In this document: one piece after another, positions 14,224 to 62,043 of the stretch
Layout: each line of letters begins with the position of its first letter
Numbering within the stretch: position 1 is the stretch's first letter
Source: Petrosia ficiformis
Taxonomy: Eukaryota > Porifera > Demospongiae > Haplosclerida > Petrosiidae
Assembly (NCBI GenBank): GCA_947044365.1
Contig: OX345637.1
Coordinates: 15,718,916 to 15,782,915, forward strand
Direction of reading: 5' to 3'
DNA: 64,000 nt
The notes under the pieces: generated by a model
The model's input: only the letters and a program-made list of their open reading frames with translations
What the model was told of the DNA's origin: nothing
Databases searched by the model: none
Translations under genes and position numbers: made by a program

Positions 14224-15119
14224 TGAAGGATTGCTTGTTAACTACATCAACTTTGTCAGATTTTAACAATATCGGCTAAAATATGGAGATATTCATGATG
14301 CTAATGCTATCTAGTGTTGAACTTGTAAGACATATGCTGTTTCACTATGGTATAAAGGTTTTATGAATGAGTTGACTATAGTATAGTGTCTAGTTTTGAG
14401 CATGAAAATATAGTGATGTCGGTAAAAGGACTGGCAATTAAAATGTACTGAAATCTTTCATTTTTTTGTATAAACAAACACTTATCTCAATATCTTCTTA
14501 CACATAGTAAAGAATGATTTGTGTAATTTTTATTATCTCTTCAGCTATAAGTTAAAATCATGAGCTGTTTAAAATATTTGTACAATATAGTAACTACAAT
14601 TACCTCACCTATTATAATTAACATTCATTATAATATCATTCTTTCTTCATTCCAGACTAAATCAAGTAGTTAATATATTATATTTGATATACTGTTCAGT
14701 TCCTTACCATATGGTAAGTATAATATATATTAATATAATCAATTATTAACTCTCAAATTAAATCCTTTATAATGATTGATAAATGATACCACATGTATAT
14801 AGGATGAGGTTAGTATATAGTATACAAGTAATAGTTATAACAACATTATAATGAATATATCTCATTTACACTAACTGTACCAGAGGGCTGTAAGGTCAAG
14901 AGAAAGGTTACTGTAAATCAGATATATCCCAACCAGAGGTGTTATCAACTGAGTTGTTTATGTTGAGTGGGTGTATTTGGAACAACACTATCTAAACTAA
15001 TTAGTTGCTTAAAATTCATTTTCAGTTTTGCAGGTAACTATAAAACCATGGTGATACAATGAAACAGGATAATATAACTCATTAGAAGTTCTTCTGATAC
15101 ACCCACTCAACATTGTACA

Positions 15120-16975
15120 ATAGTATTTTGAATTATCATTTTATTTCCTCTTTTTCATATCTTTGTCTATATTCTAATTACGGCACATCTTTTCATTTCT
15201 TAATAACACATCATTGTGGATCCACTAGTGGGTGAGTCTAATCAAACCTAATATATACAATAGTATTTTGAATTATCATTTTATTTCCTCTTTTTCATAT
15301 CTTTGTCTATATTCTAATTACGGCACATCTTTTCATTTCTTAATAACACATCATTGTGGATCCACTAGTTGGTGAGTCTAATCAAACCTAATATATACAA
15401 TAGTATTTTGAATTATCATTTTATTTCCTCTTTTTCATATCTTTGTCTATATTCTAATTACGGCACATCTTTTCATTTCTTAATAACACATCATTGTGAA
15501 TCCACTAGTGGGTGAGTCTAATCACACCTAATATATACAATAGTATTTTGAATTATCATTTTATTTCCTCTTTTTCATATCTTTGTCTATATTCTAATTA
15601 TGGCACATCTTTTCATTTCTTAATAACACATCATTGTGAATCCACTAGTGGGTGAGTCTAATCAAACCTAATATATACAATAGTATTTTGAATTATCATT
15701 TTATTTCCTCTTTTTCATATCTTTGTCTATATTCTAATTACGGCACATCTTTTCATTTCTTAATAACACATCATTGTGAATCCACTAGGACGTGAGTCTT
15801 ATCAAACCTAATATATACAATAGTATTTTGAATTATCATTTTATTTCCTCTTTTTCATATCTTTGTCTATATTCTAATTACGGCACATCTTTTCATTTCT
15901 TAATAACACATCATTGTGAATCCACTAGGACGTGAGTCTTATCAAACCTAATATATACAATAGTATTTTGAATTATCATTTTATTTCCTCTTTTTCATAT
16001 CTTTGTCTATATTCTAATTACGGCACATCTTTTCATTTCTTAATAACACATCATTGTGGATCCACTAGGAGGTGAGTCTAATCAAACCTAATATATACAT
16101 GTACAATAGTATTTTGAATTATCATTTTATTTCCTCTTTTTCATATCTTTGTCTATATTCTAATTACGGCACATCTTTTCATTTCTTAATAACACATCAT
16201 TGTGGATCCACTAGGACGTGAGTCTAATCAAACCTAATATATACAATAGTATTTTGAATTATCATTTTATTTCCTCTTTTTCATATCTTTGTCTATATTC
16301 TAATTACGGCACATCTTTTCATTTCTTAATAACACATCATTGTGGATCCACTAGTTGGTGAGTCTAATGAAACCTAATATATACAATAGTGTTTTGAATT
16401 ATCATTTTATTTCCTCTTTTTCATATCTTTGTCTATATTCTAATTACGGCACATCTTTTCATTTCTTAATAACACATCATTGTGGATCCACTAGGAGGTG
16501 AGTCTAATCAAACCTAATATATACATGTACAATAGTATTTTGAATTATCATTTTATTTCCTCTTTTTCATATCTTTGTCTATATTCTAATTACGGCACAT
16601 CTTTTCATTTCTTAATAACACATCATTGTGGATCCACTAGGACGTGAGTCTAATCAAACCTAATATATACAATAGTATTTTGAATTATCATTTTATTTCC
16701 TCTTTTTCATATCTTTGTCTATATTCTAATTACGGCACATCTTTTCATTTCTTAATAACACATCATTGTGGATCCACTAGTTGGTGAGTCTAATGAAACC
16801 TAATATATACAATAGTGTTTTGAATTATCATTTTATTTCCTCTTTTTCATATCTTTGTCTATATTCTAATTACGGCACATCTTTTCATTTCTTAATAACA
16901 CATCATTGTGAATCCACTAGTTGGTGAGTCTAATCAAACCTAATATATACAATAGTATTTTGAATTATCCTCTTT
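15120..16975. repeat. 140-bp minisatellite array, 13 units, unit A
   Basis: Thirteen head-to-tail units of about 140 bases, nearly identical, end in a degenerate unit at about 16960-17040. Each unit has a pyrimidine tract (CCTCTTTTTCATATC), TTCTAATTACGGCACATC, then CCACTAG, a variable triplet and GTGAGTCTAAT. The triplets in order are TGG, TTG, TGG, TGG, GAC, GAC, GAG, GAC, TTG, GAG, GAC, TTG, TTG. Units 7-9 recur as 10-12, a three-unit higher-order repeat. Confidence 0.93.
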
Positions 16976-17040
16976 TTCATATCTGTCTATATTCTAATAT
17001 TGACACTTCTTTTCATCTGATAATAACATATCATTTAATC

Positions 17041-17888
17041 TACTTCAGTATTTCCATTTTCCATTTTTATATACTTATTTTGTTTAACACAGTTTGAACG
17101 TAAATTCAGAGAATATAGATGTAAGTTCTCAGTTATATCAATTGTTATTGTAATGTCATACATGTACTACTCCATTTTGGTTGTTCAAAATTAATGTAAT
17201 TAAAGAAACTGGAATTTTACAAAAGTATAGTAATTACTGTAAGTGTTTGATATCAGGTGTACAAGAAATCAATGAATTATTCATCTTAAACCAATATCAT
17301 TATCTGACTAGTGTGTGATACCCATATTCTTTACTTGGTGGATGAAGGGTCTGGGGATGATATCTTGTTCTGTTCAAATGTTTAACTATCTTATATCAGG
17401 AGTGCATGAATCCTTCGGCGGGGTTCATGTGCTCCTGCTTATATACATAAAGGAAGTGGTTTTTGTTTGTGTTGTGTTTCAGAGTCAGTTCTCTAGTTTT
17501 CCTTTCTTCAGTAGTCTGGTATGTTTGGTAACTATTGCTACACACTTGTCAAATATCTATTATCATAATATTTTTTGAGTTCTACACAATATATAGTTAC
17601 AATGTGTATTGCACAAATCACGTACTAACCAGGTAATCAGTCATGTAGAAATCACCTCCTACACTGATAAAGTGGTGCTTGATCAGGCTCACTCAATTAC
17701 TAGTTAACATGAATACATGTATTCATGTGGTGATATGTATTTTAATTATAATTGTGTTGAGCTGAAACTGATGTCATCATGAATTCATAGTTTTAAATAT
17801 AATTATACTTGTGTGTGTATTATAATCATTATAGTAATCACATATTGAGTGCATTTTAGAAAGTGAGTTTGATTTGCACAACATATTT
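17041..17888. other. Conserved non-coding region upstream of ROCO, unit A
   Basis: This is closely shared with 41690-42530 in unit B. It contains a possible 28-base exon (TTTAACACAG|TTTGAACG...GAT|GTAAGT) at about 17091-17119 and a hairpin (GGAGTGCATGAATCC and its complement) at about 17399-17436. A short open frame at 17315-17578 has no family signature. The missing 5' exons of the ROCO gene should lie here or further left; I could not define them. Confidence 0.4.
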
Positions 17889-18262: not shown

Positions 18263-18369
18263 AATAGATTAAGATTATATGTATATATTTGACATAAATA
18301 TACACGTTTACTTTGTTATAGATTTATATTTTCATCTTCTCTCCTTATGTATCTAAATCATTCTTTTAG

Positions 18370-21300
18370 CTTATACAAATGCTCTCAAAAAAGGAGAGTT
18401 AGATGTTGCCTATTCTCGTATAATGTTAATTGGATCAGCTGGTGTTGGGAAGAGTAGTCTAAAACGTGGACTAATGAGCTTACCATTTGATGTTAACATC
18501 AACAGCACCATTGTTGCTGACGTCCAATCCGTACGACCCGATATTCTATCACTACAACCAAATATATCTTCAGTACAACCTGTTCTTCCTCCGTTACGAC
18601 CGAATATTCCATCATTACAGCCTGATATTTCATCAATACAACCCTTATTACGACCAGTGTGTTTGGAGTGGGCAATGCCAGGAGATGAATCTACTATAGA
18701 ATGGACGGAGGTGACCACAGAGCATGAAGTAGAGGAAATAGCTCAATTAGTTACCATTGTCCACAAGCAACCAGAGGGTCATGGTACTTCTACAGCTACT
18801 GCCAATTTTCCACAAACCGAGCCACGTACGTCAACCCCACCAGAGTATAATACAAGAATAAACAAGATAATTAGATCAGAAATTCTTACTCCTGCCTTCA
18901 AGACAGCCTATAAGATGCGCCACAATGATATTGAACACGTAAAACTTCAGTCTTTCTATCATATTTGGGATTGTGGTGGTCAGCCAGTATTTCAGGAGGT
19001 ATTGCCAGCATTTCTCACTTCACGTACCATGTTCCTTCTCCTCTTTGATGCCTCTATAGATTTCAATACTAGATTGAAAGCTATACAGTATCAACAAGGG
19101 CAAATGATTGAAGAAGGGGAAGTCAACATGACGACACTTGAGCTTATGGAGGGGTGGATGTCAAATATTCATGGCCATCTTGTGAAGTATGATGACAAGG
19201 GTGGTTTATTAGAGTATCCTAGAATTATTGCAGTTGGATCTCGAGGAGATAAATTGACAGATCAGGAGAAGATTGAAGTCAAGGCAAAGCTGGATAAGTG
19301 TCTAAGAGACACTTCACATGATCAGAAAGACAAACAATATCTACAAATATTAAAGGAAATTGTCATTATTGATAATACCACATCAGGAAAGGGAAGTGAA
19401 GAAGATATAGGATACAAGTATTTACGAAAGGAGATTTATGATTTCACAAGCAAGAAGCTTGTTGTTAGAACACCAATTAAATGGGTTCTTTTTCGTAAGG
19501 TTTTGCAATCGTTAGTGAAGAAATCAGAAAATATCATTACCATGAGGGAGGCATGTGCTATTGGTGTTGCCTGTAAAATCCACCCTAAAGATGTTCCCAG
19601 TGTCCTCAAGTTCTATCATGAGCTGGGGGTGGTATTATTCTACTCTCGTATCAAGGGCCTTCAAGAGAAAGTCATTCTGAATCCAAAATGGTTTGTCGAA
19701 TGTCTTGGAAAGGTTCTCACACTTCCAGGTAGGGAAGGGTTTGAGAAAAGAGAGATGTGGAATCTTCTACGTCAAAAGGGCATTCTTGTACAGCCTCTGT
19801 ATGTAGCTGTTTGGAAAGAATGTGAGGGGATTGATCCCGAGGATATGATCCAGCTTTTAGTAAATTTTCATTTAGCAGCTGAAGTCCAGACAGATGAGTT
19901 TGGTCAACGAAGATCAAAACAGTTTTTCGTACCCGCAGTACTTCCAACAGGAGATCCATCATCAGCTCTGCCTTCTGGATATCAGCTTAGAGCTAGTCCA
20001 CTACACATCACATTTGGAACAGGTTATGTCATACCAGGCTTTTTTACACGTCTTGTCACCTCCATGGCTGAATCATCTCAATGCTCACTTTACTTCCATG
20101 ATGGTATTTTCCGAAACAGAGTGACATTTAAATTTGCCGATATCAATCGCGTGACTCTTACTCAGCTTTCTAACGCAATACAAGTTGATATGTTACGTTA
20201 TATTCCCAATTCCCCCACCCTAACACCTTTCCAAATAAGTTGTAAAGATTTACAGGTATCTCATTATGTATAATAATTACTTGTATTTGTATGACATACT
20301 GAATCAATAGATTTATCATTATATACATAATTAAGGTATTCTCTGATGATTCATAATTCACATTTATTAATAAGATGAGTAATACAGTATTATTAAACTG
20401 TATATATAATCTAAGTGTGGTTTATATAATGAAATATTAATGTGTTACTTTTCATCCAGTGTCTTCTGAAGATGTGTTCTCAGAAGGTAGAAGATAGTCT
20501 ACAGTCTAGTAATATCTATACTGATGATCAACAAGTGACTGTTTCTGATATTACAAGAGAAGTCAAGTTCATATGTCAAGGGTTGGAATGTAATTCTTCT
20601 TCTGATCCTCATTATCTACTTCCTATAGCTTCTCAAACATGTGAGATACCAGTTGAATGTGATAGAAGCAGAGTTTATAGGAAACTTACTCGTGATGAAT
20701 CATACTGGTTTCCTGGAAATAGTGAAGGTGAAATTAAATGCTTAGAAGACACTTGTATTGTAAATTTTTATTTACTGTCATCAATCCTGCCCATACATAA
20801 CTAACTACATCAATCCTGCCCATACATAACTAACTACATCAATCCTGCCCATACATAACTAACTACATACATTTATTGTATATACATGTTGTTAATAATC
20901 TGTTCTACAAGTAGTCAAATATTGTTCACATAATTATCTTCTAATTCTTTTACTACTAACTCTTGTTCCTTTGCTCATGGAGATGGATTCAAGGGGCTAC
21001 TGTAATTTGTTTCTCTCTGAAAACATTGACATTATGAATCCACTACCAGCAAAATTATACAAGGAAAATATAATAGTGGCCTTTTCTTTGTGTTTGTAAA
21101 GATATGATTATTGTTTTCGTTGAGAGGACTTCTGTTAACAAAATGAATACATAGATACATAAGACATAATTCTACTCAGTGTTCTGCCCACACTGGTTGG
21201 TACTGGTCAGGAATAACCACCTTTCAGATAAATTAACCATCTCTCAGATAATACATATATAGGCTACTGAGACAGAAGTAAGTATATACTGGATAAACAG

Positions 21301-22255
21301 CACTAAATGCAATGTAGAATCCAACCACCACTCTAACTATCCTGAGCAGAACACTGTATAATAATATATATTTTATGTGTTCTAATTATTTCTTAATCAT
21401 TGGAATAATTATGAGAGCATGTTTTATACTCAATGAAATGATTATAATATTATACTTGTAATGAAGGGATATACTTTCTATTATATATAATAATTAGTAT
21501 AATTATTATGATAGTGTGTAATATATAATGAGATAAACCACTTGTAAACCAGCTATCTATATCTCATATTCAGATACTACAGTATCATCTCCCTTTGTTG
21601 TTAATACATCATCTCAACTAGTAGATAATACTCCAGTATCTAATATATCATCACAAACATCTACTATTAACAAAGGTAATGAATGAAGTTCATATAATAC
21701 ACAACTAACATTCTTATTGAATTGTAACTGATGATAATGATTATATATAATTATATATAATTCTCTCATTGTACATTTAGAATCAATTGTCATGTCAGTA
21801 TAATACACATTCATGATATCACAATATTGTATATATGAGATACATGTAATTACATTTCATATATTACTAATCCTAATATAGAATCTTTCATCAAGACACC
21901 TGTCAAGTCTACTACACTCGCTGGACACCATACATCACAAACCACTAAGCTTTCTTCTCCATACGATATACTGAAGAGACACACACCAGAGTTGTTAGGT
22001 GTGATATCTAACCCTGATAAACTAGCTAATGATCTCTCATCAGCTGATCTAATAACACATCAGGTTAAAGATGATGTATTGACAACTCAAAGTTTCTCCC
22101 GATATCAGAAATGTAGCAAGCTATTGAACGAAATTCAAAGATCTCTCCGAGCCTTCAATGAAGAAGAGAGACTAAAATTATTTTGTGATGTATTGAAACA
22201 ACAAAATGACTGGACACTATCAAAAATATCTGATAACATGTTGAAAGAGTTATAA
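18370..22255 (+). CDS. ROCO (Roc-COR) GTPase with CARD-like C-terminus, gene A (5' partial)
   Basis: Exons are 18370-20255, 20460-20727, 21574-21675 and 21882-22255, with matching phases and stop TAA at 22253-22255. The true start lies in an unidentified upstream exon, since the frame is open through the acceptor at 18370. Counting from the Met at 18423, the P-loop GSAGVGKS is at 4-11, a repeat of S-x-Q-P type at 34-78, the switch-II motif WDCGGQ at 182-187 and a G4-like SRGDKL near 273-278. A COR-like region follows to about 611, with PKWFVECLGKVLTL. Exon 3 encodes a Ser/Thr-rich linker. Exon 4 encodes a helical CARD-like domain (ELLGVISNPDKLANDLSS). Roc-COR proteins are Ras-like switches that dimerise through COR; a CARD would recruit CARD partners. 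Roc-COR is firm; CARD is likely. Confidence 0.88.
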
Positions 22256-23114
22256 GGTCACATAAGTTTATTATAATGAAGTATTTGTTTTATAAATATT
22301 TCATTAGCTGCCCCGTTTTGTATTGTATAATTGAAACAATACAATATTCTATATAATTATTAGCTATAGTGTATGAAATGTAACTCCTGATCTCATTGTT
22401 TTGTCTTTTAATTTCTTTCGTTACAATAATTTGATTATTTAAATCCTGATTTGCTACTAATGAGTTTGACTATTAATAATTTTATTGTCATGAATATAAT
22501 TATCTCTGTTTAATAATAAAATATCTATCATTGATATTTGCAGTAAAAGAATGACACACACATTTAGTATTGTCAATGTGAGGCAAGATTAGCAAAGTGT
22601 TAGCATTGTATGGCTTTACTCCTGATGAATTTATGTTTTCAATCAGAGTTCTGACAGCACATACATAATGACTGCCTGGTTTCGTAACTGAAGCATTCAG
22701 TACCACTCAGGAAGTATATATATATGAAGTGCTGATGGTTGTCATAGCTCTGTGGTGAGAGGCTCCGTGAAACCACTGGTAGCTAAAGTCAGTAGCCCTG
22801 AATTCAATTCCCAGTAACTACTGGCATTTTTTTCACTTTACTTTGTTCATGAATGTGAACAGACTTTAGATAATCACCTGAATTAGATACAGCATTAGTA
22901 TGAATCATGATTAACTATTAATCATTATTCATACTAAGGCAATTGAACACAATAAAATTATCATTTTACATCTACCGTATTAATAATGAATTATTCATTA
23001 TTAATAATAATAAATAATATTTCCTGCACTAATAATAATAATAATAATAATGTGATAATAAATATTAAACAGAGATATAGTGTATTATATATTATGATAA
23101 GTCTACTGTAGTTT
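22256..23114. other. Convergent intergenic region, unit A/B junction
   Basis: It lies between the ROCO A stop and the stop of ATPase copy B, transcribed tail-to-tail. It holds AT-rich DNA, a tRNA-like segment at 22741-22826 and (AAT)n near 23030. A TATTAAACAGAGATATAGTG block near 23066 recurs at 50402 beside copy C. Confidence 0.7.
22741..22826 (+). repeat. tRNA-derived (SINE-like) segment
   Basis: TAGCTCTGTGGTGAGAGG resembles a tRNA A box, and GAATTCAATTCCCAG, about 50 bases on, resembles a B box. A T-run (TTTTTTT) follows. The acceptor stem does not pair cleanly, so it is not called as a tRNA gene. It is absent from the matching B/C junction. Confidence 0.4.
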
Positions 23115-39649: not shown

Positions 39650-41620
39650 TACAATAGTATTGGAATTCTCATTTTATTTCCTCTTTTTCATGTCTTTGTC
39701 TATATTCTAATTACGGCACATCTTTTCATTTCTTAATAACACATCATTGTGAATCCACTAGGACGTGAGTCTAATCAAACCTAATATATACAATAGTATT
39801 TTGAATTATCATTTTATTTTCTCTTTTTCATATCATTGTCTATATTCTAATTACGGCACATCTTTTCATTTCTTAATAACACATCATTGTTAATCCACTA
39901 GGAAGTGAGTCTAATCAAACCTAATATATACAATAGTATTTTGAATTATCATTTTATTTCCTCTTTTTCATATCTTTGCCTATATTCTAATTACGGCACA
40001 TCTTTTCATTTCTTAATAACACATCATTGTGAATCAACTAGCCGGTGAGTCTAAACAAACCTAATATATACAATAGTATTTTGAATTATCATTTTATTTC
40101 CTCTTTTTCATATCTTTGTCTATATTCTAATTACGGCACATCTTTTCATTTCTTAATAACACATCATTGTGGATCCACTAGTGGGTGAGTCTAATCAAAC
40201 CTAATATATACAATAGTATTTTGAATTATCATTTTATTTCCTCTTTTTCATATCTTTGTCTGTATTCTAATTACGGCACATCTTTTCATTTCTTAATAAC
40301 ACATCATTGTGGATCCACTAGTTGGTGAGTCTAATGAAACCTAATATATACAATAGTATTTTGAATTATCATTTTATTTCCTCTTTTCAATATCTTTGTC
40401 TATATTCTAATTACGGCACATCATTTCATTTCTTAATAACACATCATTGTTAATCCACTAGGAAGTGAGTCTAATCAAACCTAATATATACAATAGTATT
40501 TTGAATTATCATTTTATTTCCTCTTTTTCATATCTTTGCCTATATTCTAATTACGGCACATCTTTTCATTTCTTAATAACACATCATTGTGAATCAACTA
40601 GCCGGTGAGTCTAAACAAACCTAATATATACAATAGTATTTTGAATTATCATTTTATTTCCTCTTTTTCATATCTTTGTCTATATTCTAATTACGGCACA
40701 TCTTTTCATTTCTTAATAACACATCATTGTGGATCCACTAGTGGGTGAGTCTAATCAAACCTAATATATACAATAGTATTTTGAATTATCATTTTATTTC
40801 CTCTTTTTCATATCTTTGTCTGTATTCTAATTACGGCACATCTTTTCATTTCTTAATAACACATCATTGTGGATCCACTAGTTGGTGAGTCTAATGAAAC
40901 CTAATATATACAATAGTATTTTGAATTATCATTTTATTTCCTCTTTTCAATATCTTTGTCTATATTCTAATTACGGCACATCATTTCATTTCTTAATAAC
41001 ACATCATTGTGGATCCACTAGTTGGTGAGTCTAATGAAACCTAATATATACAATAGTATTTTGAATTATCATTTTATTTCCTCTTTTTCATATCTTTGTC
41101 TATATTCTAATTACGGCACATCTTTTCATTTCTTAATAACACATCATTGTGGATCCACTAGGCGGTGAGTCTAAACAAACCTAATATATACAATAGTATT
41201 TTGAATTATCATTTTATTTCCTCTTTTTCATATCTTTGTCTATATTCTAATTACGGCACATCTTTTCATTTCTTAATAACACATCATTGTGAATCCACTA
41301 GGACGTGAGTCTAAACATACAATAGTGTTGTGAATTATCATTTTATTTCCTCTTTTTCATATCTTTGTCTATATTCTAATTACGGCACATCTTTTCATTT
41401 CTTAATAACACATCATTGTGAATCCACTAGGTGGTGAGTCTAATCAATTTTAATATATACAATAGTATTTTGAATTATCATTTTATTTCCTCTTTTTCAT
41501 ATCTTTGTCAATATTCTAATTACGGCACATCTTTTCATTTCTTAATAACACATCATTGTGAATCCACTAGCCGGTGAGTCTAATCAAACCTAATATATAC
41601 AATAGTATTTTGAATTATCC
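39650..41620. repeat. 140-bp minisatellite array, 14 units, unit B
   Basis: It has the same monomer as 15120-16975. The triplets before GTGAGT in order are GAC, GAA, CCG, TGG, TTG, GAA, CCG, TGG, TTG, TTG, GCG, GAC, GTG, CCG. Units 2-5 recur as 6-9, a four-unit higher-order repeat. A degenerate unit ends the array at about 41610-41700. Confidence 0.93.
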
Positions 41621-41689
41621 TCTTTTTCATATCTTTATTGATATTCTAATATCAACACTTCTTTTCATCTGATAATAACATATCATTTA

Positions 41690-42710
41690 ATCTACTTCAG
41701 TATTTCCATTTTCCATTTTTATATACTTATTTTGTTTAACACAGGTTGAACATAAATTCAGAGAATATGATTGTAAGTTCTCAGTTATATCAATTGTTAT
41801 TGTAATGTCATACATGTACTACTCCATTTGGTTGTTCAAAATTAATGTAATTAAAGAAACTGGAATTTTACAAAAGTATAGTAATTACTGTAAGTGTTTG
41901 ATATCAGGTGTACAAGAAATCAATGAATTAATCATCTTAAACCAATATCATTATCTGACTAGTGTGACATATCCATATCCTTTACTTGGTGGATGAAGGG
42001 TCTGGGGATGAAATCTTGTTCTTTTCAAATGTTTAACTATCTTATATCAGGAGTGCATGAATCCTTCGGCGGGGTTCATGCGCTCCTGCTTATATACATA
42101 AAGGAAGTGGTTTTTGTTTGTGTTGTGTTTCAGTCTCAGTTCTCTAGTTTTCCTTTCTTCAGTAGTCTGGTATGTTTGGTAACTATTGCTACACACTTGT
42201 CAAATATCTATTATCATAATATTTTTTGAGTTCTACACAATATATAGTTACAATGTGTATTGCACAAATCACGTACTAACCAGGTAATCAGTCATGTAGA
42301 AATCACCTCCTACACTGATAAAGTGGTGCTTGATCAGGCTCACTCAATTACTAGTTAACATGAATACATGTATTCATGTGGTGATATGTATTTTAATTAT
42401 AATCATGTTGAGTTGAAACTGATCTTATTATAAATTCATAGTTTTAAATATATACTTGTGTGTGTATTATAATCATTATGGTGATCACATATTGAGTGTA
42501 TCTTAGAAAGTGAGTTTGATTTGCATAACATGATTACACTACACATATATACAAAAGAAGTTTTATCTCCATATAAATGTTTTAATGAGATCATATTAAA
42601 CTCAACTATTATTCCAGTATAATATACTATACTTTGCTTGTGGTACTGATATGTCCTCATTTACTAAACAGTTAGTGTACTATTATCAGTTCATGTGTGG
42701 ATTAAAACTT
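41690..42710. other. Conserved non-coding region upstream of ROCO, unit B
   Basis: Counterpart of 17041-17888, including the possible 28-base exon (ACACAG|GTTGAACA...ATT|GTAAGT) at about 41743-41773 and the TGCATGAATCC hairpin near 42051-42088. No further gene is supported. Confidence 0.4.

Positions 42711-44098: not shown

Positions 44099-44134
<36 letters not shown>
44098..44134. repeat. (TA)n microsatellite
   Basis: Uninterrupted TA run about 80 bases upstream of the ROCO B exon acceptor. Unit A has only a short TATATGTATATAT at the same place. Confidence 0.9.
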
Positions 44135-44137
<3 letters not shown>

Positions 44138-44216
44138 ATATAAATATACACATGTTTATTTGTTGTAGATTTATATTTTCATCTTCTCTCCTTATGTATC
44201 TAAATCATTCTTTTAG

Positions 44217-47200
44217 CTTATAAAAAAGCTCTCTTAGAAGGAGAGTTAGATGTTGCCTATTCTCGTATTATGTTAATTGGATCAGCTGGTGTTGGGAAGA
44301 GTAGTCTAAAACGTGGACTAATGAGCTTACCATTTGATGTTAACATCAACAGCACCATTGTTGCTGACGTTCAATCCGTACGACCCGATATTCTATCACT
44401 ACAACCAAATATATCTTCAGTACAACCTGTTCTTCCTCCGTTACGACCGAATATTCCATCATTACAGCCTGATATTTCATCAATACAACCCTTATTACGA
44501 CCAGTGTGTTTGGAGTGGGCAATGCCAGGAGATGAATCTACTATAGAATGGACGGAGGTGACCACAGAGCATGAAGTAGAGGAAATAGCTCAATTAGTTA
44601 CCATTGTCCACAAGCAACCAGAGGGTCATGGTACTTCTACAGCTACTGCCAATTTTCCACAAACCAAGCCACGTACGTCAACCCCACCAGAGTATAATAC
44701 AAGAATAAACCAGATAATTGGATTAGAAATTCTTACTCCTGCCTTCAAGACAGCCTATGAGATGCGCCACAATGATATTGAACACGTAAAACTTCAGTCT
44801 TTCTATCATATTTGGGATTGTGGTGGTCAGCCAGTATTTCAGGAGGTATTGCCAGCATTTCTCACTTCACGTACCATGTTCCTTCTCCTCTTTGATGCCT
44901 CTATAGATTTCAATACTAGATTGAAAGCTATACAGTATCAACAAGGACAAATGATTGAAGAAGGGGAAGTCAACATGACGACACTTGAGCTTATGGAGGG
45001 GTGGATGTCAAATATTCATGGCCATCTTGTGAAGTATGATGACAAGGGTGGTTTATTAGAGTATCCTCGAATTATTGCAGTTGGAACTCGAGGAGATAAA
45101 TTGACAGAACAGGAGAAGATTGAAGTCAAGGCAAAGCTGGATAAGTGTCTAAGAGACACTTCACATGATCAGAAAGACAAACAATATCTACAAATATTAA
45201 AGGAAATTGTCATTATTGATAATACCACATCAGGAAAGGGAAGTGAAGAAGATATAGGATACAAGTATTTACGAAAGGAGATTTATGATTTCACAAGCAA
45301 GAAGCTCGTTGTTAGAACACCAATTAAATGGGTTCTTTTTCGTAAGGCTTTGCAATCGTTAGTGAAGAAATCAGAAAATATCATTACCATGAGGGAGGCA
45401 TGTGCTATTGGTGTTGCCTGTAGAATTGCCCCTAAAGATGTTCCCAGTGTCCTCAAGTTCTATCATGAGCTAGGTGTGGTATTATTCTACTCTCGTATCA
45501 AGGGCCTTCAAGAGAAAGTCATTCTGAATCCAAAATGGTTTGTCGAATGTCTTGGAAAGATTCTCACACTTCCAGGTAGGGAAGGGTTTGAGAAAAGAGA
45601 GATGTGGAATCTTCTACGTCAAAAGGGCATTCTTGTACAGCCTCTGTATGTAGCTGTTTGGAAAGAATGTGAGGGGATTGATCCCGAGGATATGATCCAG
45701 CTTTTAGTAAATTTTCATTTAGCAGCTGAAGTCCAGACAGATGAGTTTGGTCAACGAAGATCAAAACAGTTTTTCGTACCCGCACTACTTCCAACAGGAG
45801 ATCCATCATCAGCTCTGCCTTCTGGATATCAGCTTAGAGCTAGTCCACTACACATCACATTTGGAACAGGTTATGTCATACCAGGCTTTTTTACACGTCT
45901 TGTCACCTCCATGGCTGAATCATCTCAATGCTCACTTTACTTCCGTGATGGTATTTTCCGAAACAGAGTGACATTTAAATTTGCCGATATCAATCGCGTG
46001 ACTCTTACTCAGCTTTCTAACGCAATACAAGTTGATATGTTACGTTATATTCCCAATTCCCCTGCCCTAACACCTTTCCAAATAAGTTGTAAAGATTTAC
46101 AGGTATCTCATTATGTATAATAATTACTTGTATTTGTATGACATACTGAATCAATAGATTTATCATTATATACATAATTAAGGTATTCTCTGATGATTCA
46201 TAATTCCCATTTAGTAATAAGATGAGTAATACAGTATTATTAAACTGTATATATAATCTAAGTGTGGTTTATGTAATGAAATATTAATGTGTTACTTTTC
46301 ATCCAGTGTCTTCTGAAGATCTGTTCTCAGAAGGTAGAAGATAGTCTACAGTCTAGTAATATCTATACTGATGATCAACAAGTGACTGTTTCTGATATTA
46401 CAAGAGAAGTCAAGTTCATATGTCAAGGGTTGGAATGTAATTCTTCTTCTGATCCTCATTATCTACTTCCTATAGCTCATCAAACATGTGAGATCCCAGT
46501 TGAATGTGATAGAAGCAGAGTTTATAGGAAACTTACTCGTGATGAATCATACTGGTTTCCTGGAAATAGTGAAGGTGAAATTAAAATACTTAGCTTGATA
46601 ATAATAATTGTATAATACATTAATTTAAAAGTTATAATAAAAATAATAATATGGCTCTTTGTATTCTGGTATGCATGTTAGCCACTGTCATGTGACTTTG
46701 TTATGAGCATAGTCTAATATTAGCTTTATATAGTTAGTATCAGTGTATGAATGCTAGTATCACTAGGAAAAGTACAAATGCTCAAGTATTTGACATGTCT
46801 TACCTTCCATTGAGACTGGACTGTAGAGAGAGAGAGGGAGAGAGAGAGAGATCTAGAGATAAAGAGTAATAACAAATTTGAAAAATAAAATTATCATACA
46901 TAGTCCTACACTAATGAATGTTAATAATCTATATTGTTCATGATTGTTAAAAAGTAGTTTTGAATGACACAATCCATATTGTGATAATGAATGTCATTAC
47001 ATTCATGTCATGTACAATGAATGTTAACTAAAAGTAAAACCCTTTTAGTAAGCCTAATATTACTTTAGTAGCTATAACTAAAAGTGGTCATTATTGTCAC
47101 ACTAAAACAACACTAATTTCTGTATTTTGTGAAGCCATAGCTAAAAAGTTCAATACATGAACTAAAATGGATTGAGCTTTAGTTATACAAAGGTGCGTGG

Positions 47201-48767
47201 GCGATTGCCATGGCAACCTTTGATGTACCTAGGGAGATATATGCCCATAACATGCCTGTAGGCAGGGAGATTTAGTGTCTAGCCACTAAATCATCTAATT
47301 GTATTTTCACAGTTTTTACAGTAACGCTAATTGGGATATTACTAAGGTTTCTACTTGACAGCAGTGGAATTTAATTGCATACTTTTGTGTTACCATGGTA
47401 TAAAATACATATAGCCCTGGTTGGAGGCAGTTATGGGCATATAACACCCTTGAGATAATTATCTCGGGCTACGCCCTCGACCAATTATCTCGCGGGGTGT
47501 TGTATGCCCATAACTGCCTCCAACCAGGCCTATATCTATACTTAATCTACATCAATTAAAATTAATTAATAATAATTATACACATGATTGAACACATTAA
47601 GCCTAATATTACTTTAGTTAATTAGCTATAACTAAAAGTGGTCATTAGTGTCACACTTAAATGACACTAATTTCTGTATTTTATGAAGCCATAGCTAAAA
47701 AGTTCAATACATGTACTAAAATGGATATAGCTTTAGTTAATTAAAACAACACTACATCAATTGATAATAATTATACACATGATTGAACACATTAAATAAT
47801 GATATACATATTATATACAACATATGTATACATGACAAAACCTGTTCTACAAGTATTCTTTATTTAATTAGTAGTTACACATGACTAATATTTCTCAGGT
47901 ACTAGTATATCTATCCTGGAGAAGTCACCAGAGTCCCTAGATGTGTATCATCTACTGAAGGAGAAGTCAGCTGATTGGAATGGATTTCGCAGAGAGCTAT
48001 GGCTTGATGGTAACTATGGAGACACGTTGGCTCGAGATCGTAGTCTTACCGATGATGATAGATTGGATAAGGTGTTAACAAAATGGATTGAAGTACAGCC
48101 ATCTCCAGTGACATGGAGCATGATTCTTAAGATGTTACGAGAACTCGAGTTGCTAAATGTTGCAGACAAAGTGAAAAAATACCTGAAAAGAGAAGATGTG
48201 ACTGAGAAATACAGCAAGAAAAATAATTTTTCTGGTTAGTAAATTGTTTCTAACAAAGTATAACAATCAATATGAATTGAAAAAACCTTTTTGAGTGATC
48301 ATTAAATGCATGATATTCACTTGACATTATTTTAAACTACATTCTCTATAATGCCCCATCCAAACCCCACCCCTTCCCTCCCTAAATCCACCCTGCTATT
48401 CAATCAATTATATTGCACATACGCATGTTGTAAATCTGCACACTTTCAAGATGGCAGGATTTGAGAGTGATGAAAATCATCAAGAGTAGCCAGCAACATC
48501 AGTGTATTTTGTAACACATGTATATTATTTTACATATGATTGATGTCATTATCCACTTTACTGAAGTGAAGACACATTTGTGATCATTCACACTATGATC
48601 AACAATTCTGATGTCATAATATAATAACTAATAATATTATTGTTTATAATTATAACTATAACATCATTCATCACATAGATTTACATTCTCCTGTAAAGAG
48701 AACAAGAAAAGAACAAGATGATTATGAGGAAGAGAAGAGTGGAAACAAGAGGAGAAAATTATCTTGA
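44217..48767 (+). CDS. ROCO (Roc-COR) GTPase with Death domain and basic tail, gene B (5' partial)
   Basis: Exons are 44217-46102, 46307-46574, 47899-48234 and 48679-48767, stop TGA at 48765-48767. The first exon encodes a Roc domain (GSAGVGKS P-loop, WDCGGQ, GTRGDKL) and a COR-like region, and differs from gene A at about 14 of 616 residues. Exon 3 encodes a Death domain: helical, with VYHLLKEKSADWNGFRREL, TDDDRLDKVLTKWIEV and a VTWSMILKMLREL helix. Exon 4 adds a charged tail with basic clusters KRTRK and NKRRK, like a bipartite nuclear localisation signal. A GTPase switch joined to a Death domain suggests signalling in cell death or immunity; localisation is inferred. The start codon lies upstream, in exons I could not define. 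Confidence 0.88.
47042..47760. repeat. Direct repeats flanking a long palindrome, ROCO B intron
   Basis: Two imperfect direct repeats of about 140 bases (AGCCTAATATTACTTTAGT...) at about 47050-47190 and 47600-47745 bracket a 117-base inverted repeat at about 47415-47531. The palindrome arms run GGTTGGAGGCAGTTATGGGC to the complement. An inner pair, GAGATAATTATCTCG, encloses GGGCTACGCCCTCG. No open frame is seen. Confidence 0.8.
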
Positions 48768-50341: not shown

Positions 50342-50389
<48 letters not shown>

Positions 50390-50453
50390 TGATAATAAAT
50401 ATATTAAACAGAGATATAGTGTATTATATATTATGATTAGTCTACTGTAGCTT
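48768..50453. other. Convergent intergenic region, unit B/C junction
   Basis: Between the ROCO B stop and the stop of ATPase copy C. About 50080-50290 is a diverged copy of TMEM147 intron sequence seen at about 11769-12000. An (AAT)n run lies at about 50344-50388. The short open frame at 49168-49413 has no recognised domain. Confidence 0.6.
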
Positions 50454-50779
50454 TTAATAGTAAGTCTCTCTCTCAACCCAACCTAAAGAGTAATATTATT
50501 AATAATAATTAAATAATAATATTACAGGATACATACCTCCTGGTCTCCTTCGTATGATAAGTTTTCTTATCTCATCATACACAAAGATAAGAATAGAGAA
50601 ACTTATGGGTGTACACCACCATTCTAATCTTAATCCATGCATACGTAATGCTGTATCTAACCATGGACAGTAAGCTAGGAATACAGCTAGAGCTGTCTCA
50701 AATATTAGACCAAATATAAGATAATAGTTCCTAATAAATAAATAAATACATGTATAGATAATATAATGACTATATAAAT

Positions 50780-51225
50780 AAATAAAATTAATGGAGGGTG
50801 AATAGATGGGTGGGGTGAATGGATTGATGGATGGATGGATGAATAGATGGATGGATGGATGAACAAATAGGTACATGTAGATGAATGGATAAATGGATGA
50901 ATACATGATGGGTGAATAGACAAATGTATGAAGAACGAATGCATGACTGGATGGATGATGATGAATGATGTATAGAATGATAAATGCCTAATGATTAAAT
51001 ATAGAATGATAAATGAATGGTGAGGGTAAATTTAAATGCAAGAATGAATGGATGCAACATCCATCCATTTATCCATCCATCCATGCATTTATCCATCTGT
51101 CCATCATCCATCCATTTATCCATCATTTATATCTGTCCATCTGTTTGTCATCCATCCATTTATCCATCTACCCATCTGTCCATCTGTCTGTCTATCCGTC
51201 ATCCATTTATCCATCCATCCATAGC
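50780..51225. repeat. (ATGG/ATCC)n tetranucleotide tract, copy C
   Basis: Counterpart of 336-765, more diverged, with TCTGTCTGTC in its right half. Confidence 0.88.
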
Positions 51226-51429
51226 ATGATTATATAATTATGATTATAATAATATTGATTAATGAATAAATATTCATACTTGAATCCCTGTCTAAATAGA
51301 GAGTTCAGTCGTGTTTTACATATTATCAGATCAGCCCACTGTACTACAACAATACTGATAAAGAATCCAGTGTGACATGTAAACTCCAGTGTCTTACGAT
51401 TATCATAATTCTGTATATACACATGTATA

Positions 51430-51660
51430 ATGAATGGATGGATGAATAGATGGATGGATGAGGGATGGATGAATGTGTGGATGATGGATGAATGGATGGA
51501 TGAATGTGTGGATGATGGATGAATGGATGGATGAATGTGTGGATGATGGATGAATGGATGGATGAATGTGTGGATGATGGATGAATGGATGGATGAATGT
51601 GTGGATGATGGATGAATGGATGGATGGATGGATGATGTGAACAATGGATGGATGGATGCA
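51430..51660. repeat. GGATGAATGTGTGGATGATG-type repeat, copy C
   Basis: About five units of roughly 32 bases built from ATGG words with a GAATGTGTGGATG marker. They lie next to the acceptor of the exon at 51280-51410, where copies A and B have only a short ATGG stretch. Confidence 0.85.
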
Positions 51661-51731
51661 TAAATAGTGGATGAATGAATGGAAACACATTTAAGGAATA
51701 ACTATTACATAACATATAGTCATATACCTAC

Positions 51732-51945
51732 ATGTACACATGTATGTGTGGTGAGATATACATGTACATGTACATGTACACATGTATGTGAGGTGATATA
51801 TACATGTACATGTACACATGTATGTGAGGTGATATATACATGTACATGTACATGTACACATGTATGTGAGGTGATATATACATGTACATGTACACATGTA
51901 TGTGAGGTGATATATACATATACATGTATGAGAGAATTAAATGAG
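51732..51945. repeat. GTGAGGTGATATATACATGT-type minisatellite, copy C
   Basis: The shortest of the three arrays, about five units, at the same intron position. Confidence 0.9.
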
Positions 51946-52504
51946 GGGAATTGAATCCAGGACTTTCAATCTGGTCAATCAGATTCATTGATGACAGAGG
52001 AGTAAAGGACTGTACTAATCCCAAATCTAGTTCAAATCAAGCTACTTCTAACTCTCTCAACATGTTATAATAATACTCATCAACTCACCCATTCTTGTCC
52101 AAAGCTATCTGTTACATAACCATTTTTATTATCCCAGTCTTTCCTCAGTCCCAGGAGTGTCCAAGGCAGAAACCCATTCTCACCCATTATCACAAAGTAT
52201 GTAAAGAACCCAGCCATTGCCTGTATGATACCAATCTGACCATATGTCATACTAATTAACCTGTTGTGATGAAATGATTCATTCAATTAATGTGACTCAA
52301 CACATGATTACTGATAATATCTCACTATTCATTCATTGTGTACACAAATCAATTTAGTAACTAAGAGACATATAGTCTCATCCCCAGCCACACCACTATG
52401 TGATAAGCCTCTGGTGACGTTCTTGGTTGTGCTGACTCAGCATGTCATGTGATTATTTAAAATAGTGTGTGTGAAATATCATAGACTGGTTACTTCCCTA
52501 TTAT

Positions 52505-52775
52505 TGCTGCCAGTCACCAGGTATCACATAACAATAGTAAACTCACTGGTATAACATAGGCTGCCAGTCACCAGGTATCACATAACAATAGTAAACTCAC
52601 TGGTATAACATAGGCTGCCAGTCACCAGGTATCACATAACAATAGTAAACTCACTGGTATAACATAGGCTGCCAGTCACCAGGTATCACATAACAATAGT
52701 AAACTCACTGGTATAACATAGGCTGCCAGTCACCAGGTATCACATAACAATAGTAAACTCTCTGGTATAACATAG
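52505..52775. repeat. 54-bp tandem repeat, unit C only
   Basis: Five near-identical 54-base units beginning CTGCCAGTCACCAGGTATC. In A and B the same place reads straight from CTATTATCACATAGG to CTCTTTTCTGAG, so the array is a unit C expansion. Confidence 0.92.
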
Positions 52776-52959
52776 GCTCTTTTCTGAGTTGTTGAATTAA
52801 TTAACAAACATTTAGTATAGATCTACTTTCATAGCTAAACATTGCAACTTAATAAATAATGGTACGTAGCCATTAGTGAAGAACAGCTTATCTTTAATAA
52901 TCACCAGAACAAACATTCCTTTGACATTTTCACACACACGTCACATGATATTTGTCAAT

Positions 52960-53125
52960 TACAGTATAGCCCTAAATTTTCACATTTTGACGACATACAA
53001 CTATTTTGTGATAAAATTTTTATTTTCACCAAAAATACATATGTGGTATGACCATTATTATTGCCGTCCATCAGTTCTCAAAAAATGCAAATTTATAGCC
53101 TACAAACATTTAGGGCTATACAGTA
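52960..53125. mobile_element. TA-flanked MITE, family 1, copy C intron
   Basis: Orthologue of 3128-3296 with small internal deletions. It is non-coding. Confidence 0.7.
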
Positions 53126-53429
53126 TATGATGATGATACAACATATTTGAATACAATTGTGTGAAGCACAACCAAGAATTTGTTAGATAGTCACCAGACA
53201 CTTCGGGTGTGGCTGAGATGAGACTAATCACTCTTCATTAATAAAACATTTCGATTACTGAATATCAAGTGTAATCATTCACTGATCAGTAGTACCATTT
53301 CATATTACCAGTAATACATACTCACCTACTGTTGACCAGTTTATCTCTTTTAGCATCTCGTGGTTTCCTCTCCATTATATTACTCTCAGCTTTCTCATAT
53401 GCAAAAGAGATAGCAAGTACCTACCAGAA

Positions 53430-53780
53430 GATACATGTATAAATGAATAGATAGATAGATACATGTACATATATAGATAGACACATGTAGAATTGCAGAT
53501 AGATACATGTGTATAGATATATAGACAGATAAATAGATTCTGATATGATGAGTGATGATGTATAGAATAAAATAGACAGGGACATGTATATCAATGAATT
53601 GAATGAAGGAATGGATAAATAGATGGAATGGATGAATAGATAGATGAATGGATGGATGGATGGGTGGATGGATGGATGGACATTGGACAGATGAATGAAT
53701 GGATGGATGGATGAATGAATGAATGATGGATGAATGGATGAATAGATAGATGGATGAATGGATGAATGGATAAATGAAAG
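53430..53780. repeat. GATA/GGAT simple repeat, copy C intron
   Basis: Nearly identical to the copy B tract at 26096-26440. Confidence 0.85.
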
Positions 53781-53953
53781 AATTAATGAAGATACCATAT
53801 CAGTTCCTAAGTCAATACAAAGAATAGTAATAGTTCCAAGAGGAAGAGGAATAGAGGCAAGAATAAACAGAAGAAATGGTGTTATCTCTGGTACATTAGA
53901 TGTTAGAGTATAAGCTATTGACTTCTTTAGATTATCAAAGATGAGACGACCTA

Positions 53954-54115
<162 letters not shown>

Positions 54116-55702
54116 TTAATAATAATTCTTTAGTTAATAATACATCTTTAATTAACCTATATTAGCTCTTCTTAATGCAGGGGCATCATTCACTCCATCT
54201 CCAGTAACAGCAACCACCCAACCAGCTCTACGACAACCTTCAACAATACGAAGTTTTTGTGTTGGTGAGGTTCGTGCAAAAACTATTTCTGGATATCTAC
54301 TTAATACCATATCAACTTCTTCATCACTCATTTCCTGAAATTAGGAATCAATGGAATGGGAATCAGTCTATAGAATAAGCATCAGTCTATATATGGATAC
54401 AACACTTACCAGTAATTCAGTACCATGAACAACAATAGCACATGCTTTTCTGTTTAATAAAAACAAGAGGAATAGTGATGACCATATAAGGAAATATTAC
54501 CTTGGATCAACTTGTTCTAGTGTTATACCTTCAGCCTCAGCCACTTCATCAGGTGTATATTGACCTGGAACATACCCAATATATAAATAATAATAATATA
54601 ATTAATATAACTGACCCTCTCTAATAATACCCACACTTCGAGCTATAGCTTTAGCAGTAATAGGATGATCACCAGTAACCATTATCACCTGTATATTAGA
54701 CAAATGAGGATTTTACTAGTTAATGTATTATTGAGTGTACATTATGACATGATCAGGTGACTAGTATATGAAAATATGATTGGCTCGATGTTATATAATT
54801 ATACATGTATCATAATTTCATATTGTAAGTAGTGTGGTTTTGTTCTACAAGAACTTTTAAAACATAAGAAGAGTTGAATAATCAATATTTCCACCATGCC
54901 TATAGTAAACTGACCAATCAGATTTTTTGAAATAAGGTTGACAAATGTGTTGGTTAGTGATATTATGTATACTGTTGCCACATGCAAAGATTTGCTTAGT
55001 TACAGCATTTCATATGTATTTCATGGTAGATACACCTTGGTACAGTTTCTATTGATTTATCAAACCTTGTGCCTTTGGCCCTCAGTTTGATAAATCCTAC
55101 ATACCTCAGTATACAACCTATACTTATAACTGTGTGTTAATTGTGTTTATGACATGAGAAAGTCAGCCATGATTACTGAATGATGATACCACATAGTAAT
55201 CATAGGGATATCTTGTTTTTGCTATGATCATAATATCATATTAATACCTTAATTCCTGCTGTTCTACACTTACAAACAGCTTCAGGTACATTGGATCGAG
55301 GTGGATCAATCATTGACATTAGACCAACGAAACACAATCCTTCAACAGGAAAATTAATCTATAAATAATATAATTAGTGAGTTTAATATCTCATGAATAA
55401 TTCATTACTCACTTCATCTGTATCAAATTCATATCCTTTAGAAAATGTCCCCAATGGAAGATTATAATGACAGAAACTAAATGATATATATATTAATATG
55501 TGTACATATAATAGTATAGTATGAGGTATAATTGATATAAAGATCTTTATCTTAATATATTACATGTATAACCATTTATATATGTACATGTGATATGTAA
55601 CTCCTCATGTTTAACTAACCCTAACACTCTTTCTCCAAGACCTCCTAGTTCAAGATATGCTTTATTAAATGACTCAGTGAATAATTCATTAATGAGGTGC
55701 TC

Positions 55703-55704
55703 CT

Positions 55705-55773
<69 letters not shown>

Positions 55774-56515
55774 CCGTTATTAAGAGTTCCTGAGTGCTGT
55801 GATGGATGTGGCTCAGTATTCGACTTGTCACATGGATTAGATTGTAGAAAAGGGGGCCTAGTAATACAAAGGCACAATGAAATAAGGGACGCTATCGCGG
55901 ATGTTTCCTCCATGGTCTGGGGACAAGTGAAAAAGGAACCAGTGGTCAGGGAACCAAATAATACAACAGAAACACCTGCCCTGATAGCTGACCTATCCAT
56001 CAGAGGAGTCTGGATGCCACAAGAGTTGACGTTGTTAGATGTTCGTGTCATAGACACAGACGCAAAATCTTATGGTAACAGATCTCCCGAAGATGTGATA
56101 AAAACCGCAGAGAGAGAAAAGAGGAATAAATATGGGGAAGCATGTGAGGCCAGGAGGGCAAAATTTACGCCATTCTGTGTTTCCGTAGATGGAGTAATGG
56201 GAAAGCAGGCGCAACACTTTGTGAAGAGAATAGGAGATAGATTGACAGAAAAGTGGGATAGAACATATGGAGAAACGATGGGGTGGCTAAGAGCAAGACT
56301 AGCATTTGCTATATTAAGAGCTTCAATCCTATGTTTGAGAGGATCACGAACAAAATGGAGATGTCTAGGGTTAGAGGATGGAGCTCCAATTACCTGGTTA
56401 TTGGATTAACACCAATCCCAATTATCACTTTATTTCTTTATTTCTATATTATAGAGTAATTATAATTTTTTGGACTTTGACTTTCAGTTGTATATTTATA
56501 TTAATAATAATAATA
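55703..56515 (+). mobile_element. 5'-truncated non-LTR retrotransposon in an (AAT)n tract
   Basis: Copies A and B have an uninterrupted AAT run here. In copy C the run is split and the coding sequence 55771-56409 plus about 90 bases of 3' sequence lies between AAT blocks (55703-55770 and about 56501-56515). Severe 5' truncation and a 3' simple-repeat edge are typical of target-primed reverse transcription. Confidence 0.8.
55771..56409 (+). pseudogene. LINE ORF2 C-terminal fragment
   Basis: The open frame encodes the region downstream of the reverse transcriptase core: a Cys/His knuckle (C-x2-C near CDGCGSVF, then SHGLDCRKGG), then LVIQRHNEIRDAI, and finally GETMGWLRARLAFAILRAS up to a stop at 56407-56409. 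No catalytic reverse transcriptase motif is present. The codon composition is less AT-rich than the surroundings. Confidence 0.78.
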
Positions 56516-56885
56516 ATGAACTTTATTATGTTAATGATAAAATATTAAACTAATATAATGAACTATTATATATACATATAAACAATAATTATGTGATAGA
56601 TATAATAATCTTTTACATTGTATTAAGAGATTAAATATAGCATGATAATGAGGGGAGAGGGACAATACAGTTCAGGATTACATGTATGAATGAAGTTAGT
56701 GTATGGCGTATCATTTATTAGCTCCATTCAAGTACACACATAGAAACATCACACATGTACAATAAAGGAAGTGTTTTAATACAGCACAGGTGATGAATTT
56801 CAAGCAATCCGATTGGGTTGAATTCAGAAAGATATAATAAATAATTATATTACATTACCTCTCCATTCATCATGTAAGTTGAACA

Positions 56886-57728
56886 TAGGCCTGGGCGATA
56901 TATCGATACCTACGATACTATCGATAGTACAGTACATATCAGATGCAACTTAAGAGGTAAACTCGTGTTGAACGCGTACGCAATTTTAGCGATACACGTA
57001 CAGAGCGCTATCGAGAGTATCGTCACGCCCACATTGAGAGCGCATGCGCAATCGTAAAACACAAGCTAAAAAAAATTCCACAATATGGTGACTTCAGATC
57101 TGTTAAAGTTGGCTAATTTGTTGCCTCTATCAAATGCTTCTAGTGAGGTTTGGACGTTTTACGGATTTAAGAATGATGGAGGTAAAATTGTTGATGGTGA
57201 TAAGGTGAGTACCTACAAAATTTTAGTTAATAAAAGTATTTATTATCATGTTTGTTTTACAGGTGTATTGTGTAATTTGTGAGCCTCATCGCCAGTTAAA
57301 ATATTGTGGAAACACTACTAATCTATTCTCACATTTAAAAAACAAACATCCTCGTGTATATAGTATTCTTCAAAAACCAAAGCAATCTACTGAAGCTAGT
57401 TCAAGTTGCAGTAGCAAGCCACCACAGAGTATCAACAGATGGTTTGCTAATCAGGAAAGACTACGACCAGATAGCCCACGTGCAAAAGAACTGTCAAAGA
57501 GTGTGGGATATTTTATTGCCAAAGATATGATGCCACTTAATGTGGTCCATGTTTTCTCCATGATAACTTACAATGATAAATTAATAATTATCTACCAAAT
57601 GTGTGGATTTAAGTTGTTTTCAAAAATCTTTTTAAATATTTTATTATAATGGCAATACATAAACAATATTGTGATACTCAAATTAGGTATTGTGATATGC
57701 AAATATAATTAGGTATCGCCCAGGCCTA
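56886..57728 (+). mobile_element. hAT-family element with 8-bp target duplication
   Basis: 843 bases flanked by GTTGAACA (56878-56885 and 57729-57736). The terminal inverted repeats share TAGGCCTGGGCGATA. An 8-base duplication and short ends fit hAT. It contains a BED-finger gene start but no hAT catalytic or dimerisation region, so it is an internally deleted, non-autonomous derivative. Copies A and B have the empty site. Confidence 0.93.
57085..57649 (+). pseudogene. BED zinc-finger N-terminus of a hAT transposase (truncated)
   Basis: Exon 57085-57204 starts at ATG and ends at AAG|GTGAGT. Exon 57263-57649 follows an acceptor TTTTACAG. The joined frame gives a BED finger: VWTFYGF, then CVIC (C-x2-C) and HLKNKH (H-x4-H). 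A linker and KSVGYFIAKDMMPLNVV follow, the segment that starts the catalytic part in ZBED/hAT proteins. It then runs into unrelated sequence and stops. It may still bind the element ends. Confidence 0.8.
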
Positions 57729-58144
57729 GTTGAACAACGACTTAAAATTCTTTCTGGAGCTCCTGTTAGTAATACAAAGATATAATTACTATATTAATGA
57801 TCTAGCTCTCTTAAATACAGTTCATTATAATATACATATTTACTAGAGAACATTATAATGATTAAGTGATAACATTAGTATATAATATTACACATAATGT
57901 GTATCACAACTCTCACATTCATTATAATTATTATGTAACTTATTAGTAAAGGATATCATATCCTCAGACATGTAGTCTTTAGATGATATATATTATACAA
58001 ATTAATAATCCTCTCATTGTGGTGTGATACTCAATTATTTTATGATCGTGATACAGCAATATTTAGATGGTACGATTATCACATGGTATCTTAATAATAT
58101 TTTATCAGATGATCAAAATATTACCAATCCCTTCCTACATGATG

Positions 58145-58605
58145 TACCATATGCCGGGAAATATTCACAGTGGAATATTTTCATGGAAGGCCTATTTTGG
58201 AGTATTCGCAAATTTAAATTTTCACGAATTACCACAATTTTAGTAGTCCTGCCGAACACGTGTACAGTTTGTTTACTCAACGTGCGAACTATTGACTTGC
58301 ATGCGAGAGGCTAGAAATGATGCTGATCCCTATTCTGTAGCAATGATCAATTCCTTAATGACTGTTGTTGGGTCATGAATCAATGGCAGAAGAAGGGACA
58401 TTTGAAGATAGTACTCCGTGTGGGCTTGAAAGAGCAGAAACTCACTTGAAGTAATGATACAATGAGGCCATAATCGATTCATGAATCCACATGGCGATTA
58501 CTTGCTACCACGCCCATATCCTTACGATTTTTATTTTCGCAAGTAGTGTACAATTTGCGAAATTCCCGAAAATATTCCACCACGAACATTTCCCAGCATA
58601 CGATA
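58145..58605. mobile_element. Inverted-repeat element, family 2, copy C
   Basis: Orthologue of 6683-7134 and 28947-29427, with an ATGCCGGGAAATATTC left end and a CCCAGCATACGATA right end. Confidence 0.7.
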
Positions 58606-58911
58606 TATATACATTATATATACTTCCCCTCATATCAAATCATGCTGTTCATTTTAGTTACCTTTCATAACAAGTAGGAATCCACTTCCGTCAGGTTTAT
58701 CATGAATAGATAACTGTATAATAATATATTAATTAGTTATATGAATATTAATGAGTTTATACCTGATATTTATTAGTTGAGTTAAATGGTATCTCTGATA
58801 CTTTACTATACTCCATTCTCAATTCTTCCACATTACCTACCTCTAATTCATAACACTTGAGTAATGCTGATTCACTAGCATCACCACAACACTCTCTATG
58901 TGTGTGTACAT

Positions 58912-58913
<2 letters not shown>

Positions 58914-58972
<59 letters not shown>
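58914..58972. repeat. (TG)n microsatellite, copy C
   Basis: The longest of the three homologous tracts, a pure TG run next to an exon acceptor. Confidence 0.93.
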
Positions 58973-58974
<2 letters not shown>

Positions 58975-60615: not shown

Positions 60616-60709
60616 CATAATCTCAATAACAATTTTAATTCATATTCTAGAGGATGTACATGTATATAGTATATTGTAACAGCACTAGGTAATACATATT
60701 CTAATATTA

Positions 60710-60866
<157 letters not shown>

Positions 60867-61960: not shown

Positions 61961-62043
61961 TAAAAAAGATAGATAGATGGATCCAATCATACATATACAT
62001 GGGTAGGGATAGATAGATATATATGTAAATGTAGATAAATGGA

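Follow-up and report, generated by a model that had tools for sequence, protein, structure and literature searches.

Near-identical ROCO GTPase genes with CARD-like or Death-domain tails in a tandem array of Petrosia ficiformis

Two ROCO genes with unrelated tails

The window, a stretch of 64,000 bp from Petrosia ficiformis (C2:15718916-15782915, in a searched genome of 191 Mb in 29 contigs), is a tandem array with units of about 23–27 kb at 1-20745, 23002-46593 and 50343-64000. Two units end in a ROCO gene, here called gene A and gene B, and the third extends past the window edge. The spliced genes, Death domains and cation ATPase fit an animal source. The two genes share a body, composed of a Roc-COR exon and a second exon, and differ in their tails. 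Identity is 98.2% over the aligned stretch 18276-20745 / 44122-46593 and stops at 20745 / 46593, which is 18 bp into the second intron, after a phase-1 donor. From this donor gene A reads on in phase 1 into a Ser/Thr-rich linker exon and a CARD-like exon, and gene B, also in phase 1, into a Death-domain exon and a basic terminal exon (Table 1). The GT-AG sites and reading phases of these genes and their relatives were read from the sequence. A preliminary description of this DNA had the same outline, with near-identical Roc-COR and second exons, loci that become unrelated just past the second donor, and a phase-1 continuation into different tails; the splice sites, the identity and its loss inside the intron agree with it on each of these points.

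The bodies match the Pfam families COR-A (E-values of 4.3e-16 in gene A and 8.1e-17 in gene B) and Roc (4.7e-11 and 8.6e-12). Roc scores 43.4 and 45.8 bits in the two bodies, with a cut-off of 27, and contains the P-loop GSAGVGKSS. COR-A follows directly after Roc at 59.5 and 61.9 bits, with a cut-off of 35.3. By these profiles both genes are ROCO (Roc-COR) GTPases and the body is a putative switch. Between the P-loop and the DCGGQ motif, the G domain holds a Pro/Leu-rich repeat insert (18500-18700), and the length of this insert varies widely among relatives (P0009, 967 amino acids; P0003, 616 amino acids).

The Death-domain label of the gene B tail is borne out by profile matches in 23 of 24 family members (E-values up to 10, best 1.2e-9) and by a predicted fold nearest to Death domains. 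The score in gene B itself is 23.2 bits against a cut-off of 22.6, and slightly under it, at 21.7 bits, in a longer piece. The CARD-like label of the gene A tail holds mainly through its predicted structure, a six-helix death fold nearest to CARDs; the CARD profile reaches 14.3 bits against a cut-off of 23.9 (E-value 0.043), in one of 23 family members. No death fold was returned when either tail as a single sequence, or the gene A tail as a profile, was searched against solved structures. Several weak Pfam names were rejected, because each was either under the shown cut-off or confined to a minority, and because a death fold was predicted: SecA_PP_bind for the bodies and, for the gene A tail or its family, DUF2096_N, HrpB1_HrpK (7 of 23 members), Syf1 repeat (4 of 23) and others (best E-value 8.1e-4).

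Table 1. Exons of genes A and B in window coordinates, with the Death exon of a related gene on contig C10
Feature	Position	Strand	Remarks
Gene A Roc-COR exon	18370..20255	+	phase-1 acceptor, phase-0 donor; open frame, GT-AG
Gene A second exon	20460..20727	+	268 bp, phase-1 donor; tails diverge beyond
Last 18 bp common to A and B, intronic switch point	20728..20745	+	end of blastn identity; junctions of seven copies
Gene A Ser/Thr-rich linker exon	21574..21675	+	102 bp, phase 1 on both sides
Gene A terminal CARD-like exon with stop	21882..22255	+	modelled core 21956-22252
Gene B Roc-COR exon	44217..46102	+	open frame, splice sites, Pfam
Gene B second exon	46307..46574	+	phase-1 donor as in gene A
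Gene B Death-domain exon	47899..48234	+	336 bp
Gene B basic terminal exon with stop	48679..48767	+	89 bp; frame and splice site
C10 Death exon	L074:2876-3175	-	phase-1 entry; CARD exon beyond, at far end of L074

Seven array genes and dispersed tails

Five further array genes on C2 were reached through their tails outside the window. The total of seven is a minimum, as a tail-led search would miss members with other tails. Four have the CARD tail (gene A, L069, L070 and L071) and three the Death tail (gene B, L072 and L073). Body identity is 96.95–98.86% across the 21 pairs, and the gene A body is equally near to the Death-tailed L072 and to its nearest CARD-tailed copy, L070 (98.77% each). 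Both shared exons are open in all seven copies, with a second exon of 268 bp throughout. The tails are likewise open and have their splice sites in every copy, including the linker exon in 4/4 CARD copies and the basic terminal exon in 3/3 Death copies. Between the bodies, mean non-synonymous divergence (dN) is 0.017 and mean synonymous divergence (dS) 0.030, a ratio of 0.56.

In a first alignment with 40 biallelic informative sites, the four-gamete test is failed by 468 of 780 site pairs, with a Hudson-Kaplan count of 21; incompatibility in the bodies was not significantly clustered in a PHI-like test (p 0.21). A second alignment kept 46 sites after columns with gaps or more than two letters were dropped, and two of these informative sites track tail type exactly, at 20631 in the second exon and at 20740 at the switch point. 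The mean r2 with tail type, 0.28, is the highest among all 35 three-to-four splits of the seven genes. The incompatible sites and the residual correlation with tail type together suggest that exchange across tail types has been extensive and that some tail-linked history remains. The array bodies thus appear to be mosaics that cut across the tail types. With 90.1–98.9% identity among the four copies, the CARD exons vary more than the bodies. Among the three Death copies the intron 46575-47898 is 99.2–99.5% identical and the Death exon 47899-48234 only 92.3–97.0%, with dN and dS both raised; local conversion from another tail is one possibility for this.

Genome-wide searches scored at least 150 places for each tail type. 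The sample surveyed was the 30 best loci per type, each with 1.5 kb upstream. Four of the CARD loci are those of the array, 15 have a second ROCO class upstream, four have a third class (L017, L018 and L021 by profile, L013 through L081) and seven have no class assignment; the class profiles were built from L020, L022, L024, L026 and L034 and from L021 and L013, which match by construction. The second class is distant, with COR-A at 35.9 bits against the cut-off of 35.3 in L077 and under the cut-off in L076. Third-class members read at greater length, L075 on C17 and L081 on C10, have ankyrin repeats. Roc has an E-value of 9.3e-8 in L075 and of 2e-5, slightly under the cut-off, in L081. Pfam gives no match for the exon at the COR position of L075, and none of any meaning for that of L081.

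The Death loci comprise three of the array and 16 without a body assignment. Bodies 71% and 69% identical to gene A precede the tails of L042 and L043, and bodies of the gene A class at 63–76% those of L048, L049, L053, L060 and L061. L055-L057 match the second exon only, and L044 has no ROCO match within 5 kb. An exon upstream of the C6 Death tail L080 looked like a ZU5 domain; Pfam found nothing there, and the exon was left unnamed.

The best-scoring splice acceptor is in phase 1 at 26 of 30 CARD and 28 of 30 Death loci (54/60). Random AG dinucleotides of the same stretches are in phase 1 at a mean of 19.7 (CARD) and 20.6 (Death) of 30, and the observed counts were reached in 10 and 2 of 5000 draws respectively, although the sampled loci are related and the counts are not independent. 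Donor and acceptor phases thus match across different genes, being phase 1 at the array junctions, at these 54 loci and in the C10 exons read; this is the matching of phases that characterises exon shuffling by symmetric phase, as far as splice sites read from sequence can tell. A survey of other ROCO genes for further tail types on the same junction had been proposed earlier. It was made by way of the two tails, and in it phase 1 predominates and Roc-COR-type exons lie upstream of many tails; its coverage is of the CARD and Death types.

Source of the CARD tail and alternative explanations

The CARD tails of the array cluster with seven tails from C10 and with L020 (C5) and L021 (C17) at a support of 89/85, and the main group of second-class CARD tails is separate from them at 98/99. 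Its Death tails fall together with the C6 tails L042-L045 at 89/94. As the four array CARD tails form one clade at 56/65 only, more than one import of the CARD tail is possible. The gene A linker matches an exon of the C10 ankyrin-Roc gene L081, with 73% identity over 30 amino acids (E-value 2.6e-9) and 81% over 122 bp, and this exon too is in phase 1 on both sides. Another C10 gene, L018, has the linker exon roughly 1 kb ahead of its CARD exon, and nothing between the two matches the Death exon; the remaining C10 loci showed no linker within 1.5 kb. Linker and CARD exons therefore stand in the order of gene A in Roc-type genes on C10. The Death tail looks native to the array body type and the CARD tail looks imported.

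A different history, in which old ROCO-CARD and ROCO-Death genes stood in one array and gene conversion overwrote their bodies without any tail having moved, would account for the mosaic-like bodies and for CARD exons that differ more than the bodies do. It is nevertheless improbable, since the linker exon that matches and the CARD tails closest to those of the array belong to another Roc gene class, and the other bodies of the array class that have an assignment carry the Death tail. Under both histories, then, a body–tail boundary has been crossed.

The tails could also be alternative last exons of a single transcription unit, picked by splicing and not fixed per gene. A precedent may exist in the C10 gene L081/L074 (6416365-6426466), which has a Death exon (22.7–23.2 bits, cut-off 22.6) with its own stop codon and, 2.5 kb past it, a CARD exon, both entered in phase 1. 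No forward open frame of more than 84 amino acids lies between them. The stop codon upstream of the CARD exon means that the two could be alternative ends, and the gene is a candidate lead in this respect. In the window, however, the order is body, its own tail and the following repeat unit, whose ATPase exons are on the opposite strand, and tail searches of the window found no second tail of either kind, which makes selection by splicing very unlikely for the array genes. Assembly collapse or haplotype switching, conceivable where near-identical copies are hard to assemble, is the least probable explanation of all, given four CARD and three Death copies each with its own differences and public exon-level proteins that match L073 (100%) and L072 (98.5%) on contigs of different length, covering the bodies and not the junctions.

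The remainder of the array contains minus-strand exons of a P-type cation ATPase, recognised in the third unit through Pfam matches to PF00689 (50502-50987, and weakly 51210-51701) and PF00122 (61142-61723), and inferred in the other units from DNA similarity. Both ROCO genes have upstream of them tandem repeats (15110-17044 and 39650-41696) of about 140 bp, in which every forward frame contains stops, and a similar repeat precedes the related C6 ROCO gene L078. No coding exon was identified upstream of genes A and B; for gene A, comparison with L078 led to these noncoding repeats and short chance matches. A search of the window for ankyrin repeats of the L075 kind gave no hit better than an E-value of 0.90, and none was accepted. 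About 220 bp downstream of gene A (22606-22821) match a stretch of L074 at 71% and are perhaps a dispersed repeat. On the plus strand, 62383-62874 has weak TNP-like transposase matches (E-values of 4.9e-4 and 0.0038), which are under the cut-off.

Exchange of outputs and comparison with known systems

One body is joined to two unrelated predicted tails at the same junction, and both tails are dispersed on other bodies. The reading preferred here, at a probability of roughly three in four, is that these are tandem ROCO GTPase genes whose output is a separate exon set entered through a phase-1 intron. The Death domain would be the native tail of the array body, recombination in the intron would have swapped it, once or more, for the linker and CARD exons of a C10-like gene, and exchange among the tandem copies would have kept the bodies alike while both tail types persisted. 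The preliminary description had proposed a duplication that joined one switch to two outputs at a shared intron phase. Junction and phase support this, but the process appears wider than a single duplication, with at least seven array genes, mosaic-like bodies and dispersed tails.

In ROCO proteins Roc-COR is a nucleotide-controlled dimer, and CARD and Death domains assemble through like-with-like contacts. A GTP-dependent rearrangement of the Roc-COR dimer may expose or cluster the tail, and one kind of switch could then nucleate either a CARD or a Death-domain signalling complex. The array genes may be immune receptors with tails that recruit different adaptors. Rather speculatively, they may belong to a ROCO-based, NLR-like repertoire whose CARD and Death exons pass among several ROCO classes through a shared phase-1 junction, and in which some genes, such as the C10 ankyrin-Roc gene, choose their output by alternative splicing.

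Exon shuffling of signalling tails is known in principle. The new element is an output-side exchange among ROCO genes that are otherwise almost the same, in a genome that retains relatives of the donor exons. Most domain swaps in signalling proteins have been deduced from distant genes, whereas in the array the switch halves have kept 97–99% identity and the outputs are unrelated. With this identity, and with relatives of the probable donor exons still present, the swapping of outputs in death-fold signalling becomes open to test, and ROCO-CARD proteins are suggested as a receptor class to seek in early-branching animals.

Among known proteins, DAPK1 combines a kinase, ankyrin repeats, ROC-COR and a Death domain. 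It shares the Roc-COR body and C-terminal Death domain with the array genes, and ankyrin repeats occur as well in the related genes on C10 and C17. CARD tails are not known to be part of DAPK1, which differs from the array in this. In the parts of the open-access PMC literature consulted, no publication came to light that deals with an exchange of CARD and Death tails among ROCO genes. Sponge NLR repertoires are similarly expanded intracellular receptors of CARD and Death types, but are NACHT-LRR proteins with N-terminal death folds, where those here are ROCO proteins with C-terminal ones (PMC12909245). The TRADD-N and Death expansions of Amphimedon amount to hundreds of proteins whose architectures have been shuffled, and many of these include Death-like domains; they involve another adaptor domain, and tail exchange between near-identical genes is absent from the passages available (PMC8195603). 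A further parallel is in the ROCO genes of brown algae, proposed immune receptors with shuffling of leucine-rich repeat (LRR) exons (PMC11378527). There too a ROCO switch is combined with shuffled exons of one symmetric phase, but those are phase-2 LRR exons on the sensor side, whereas the exons here are phase-1 death-fold exons on the output side.
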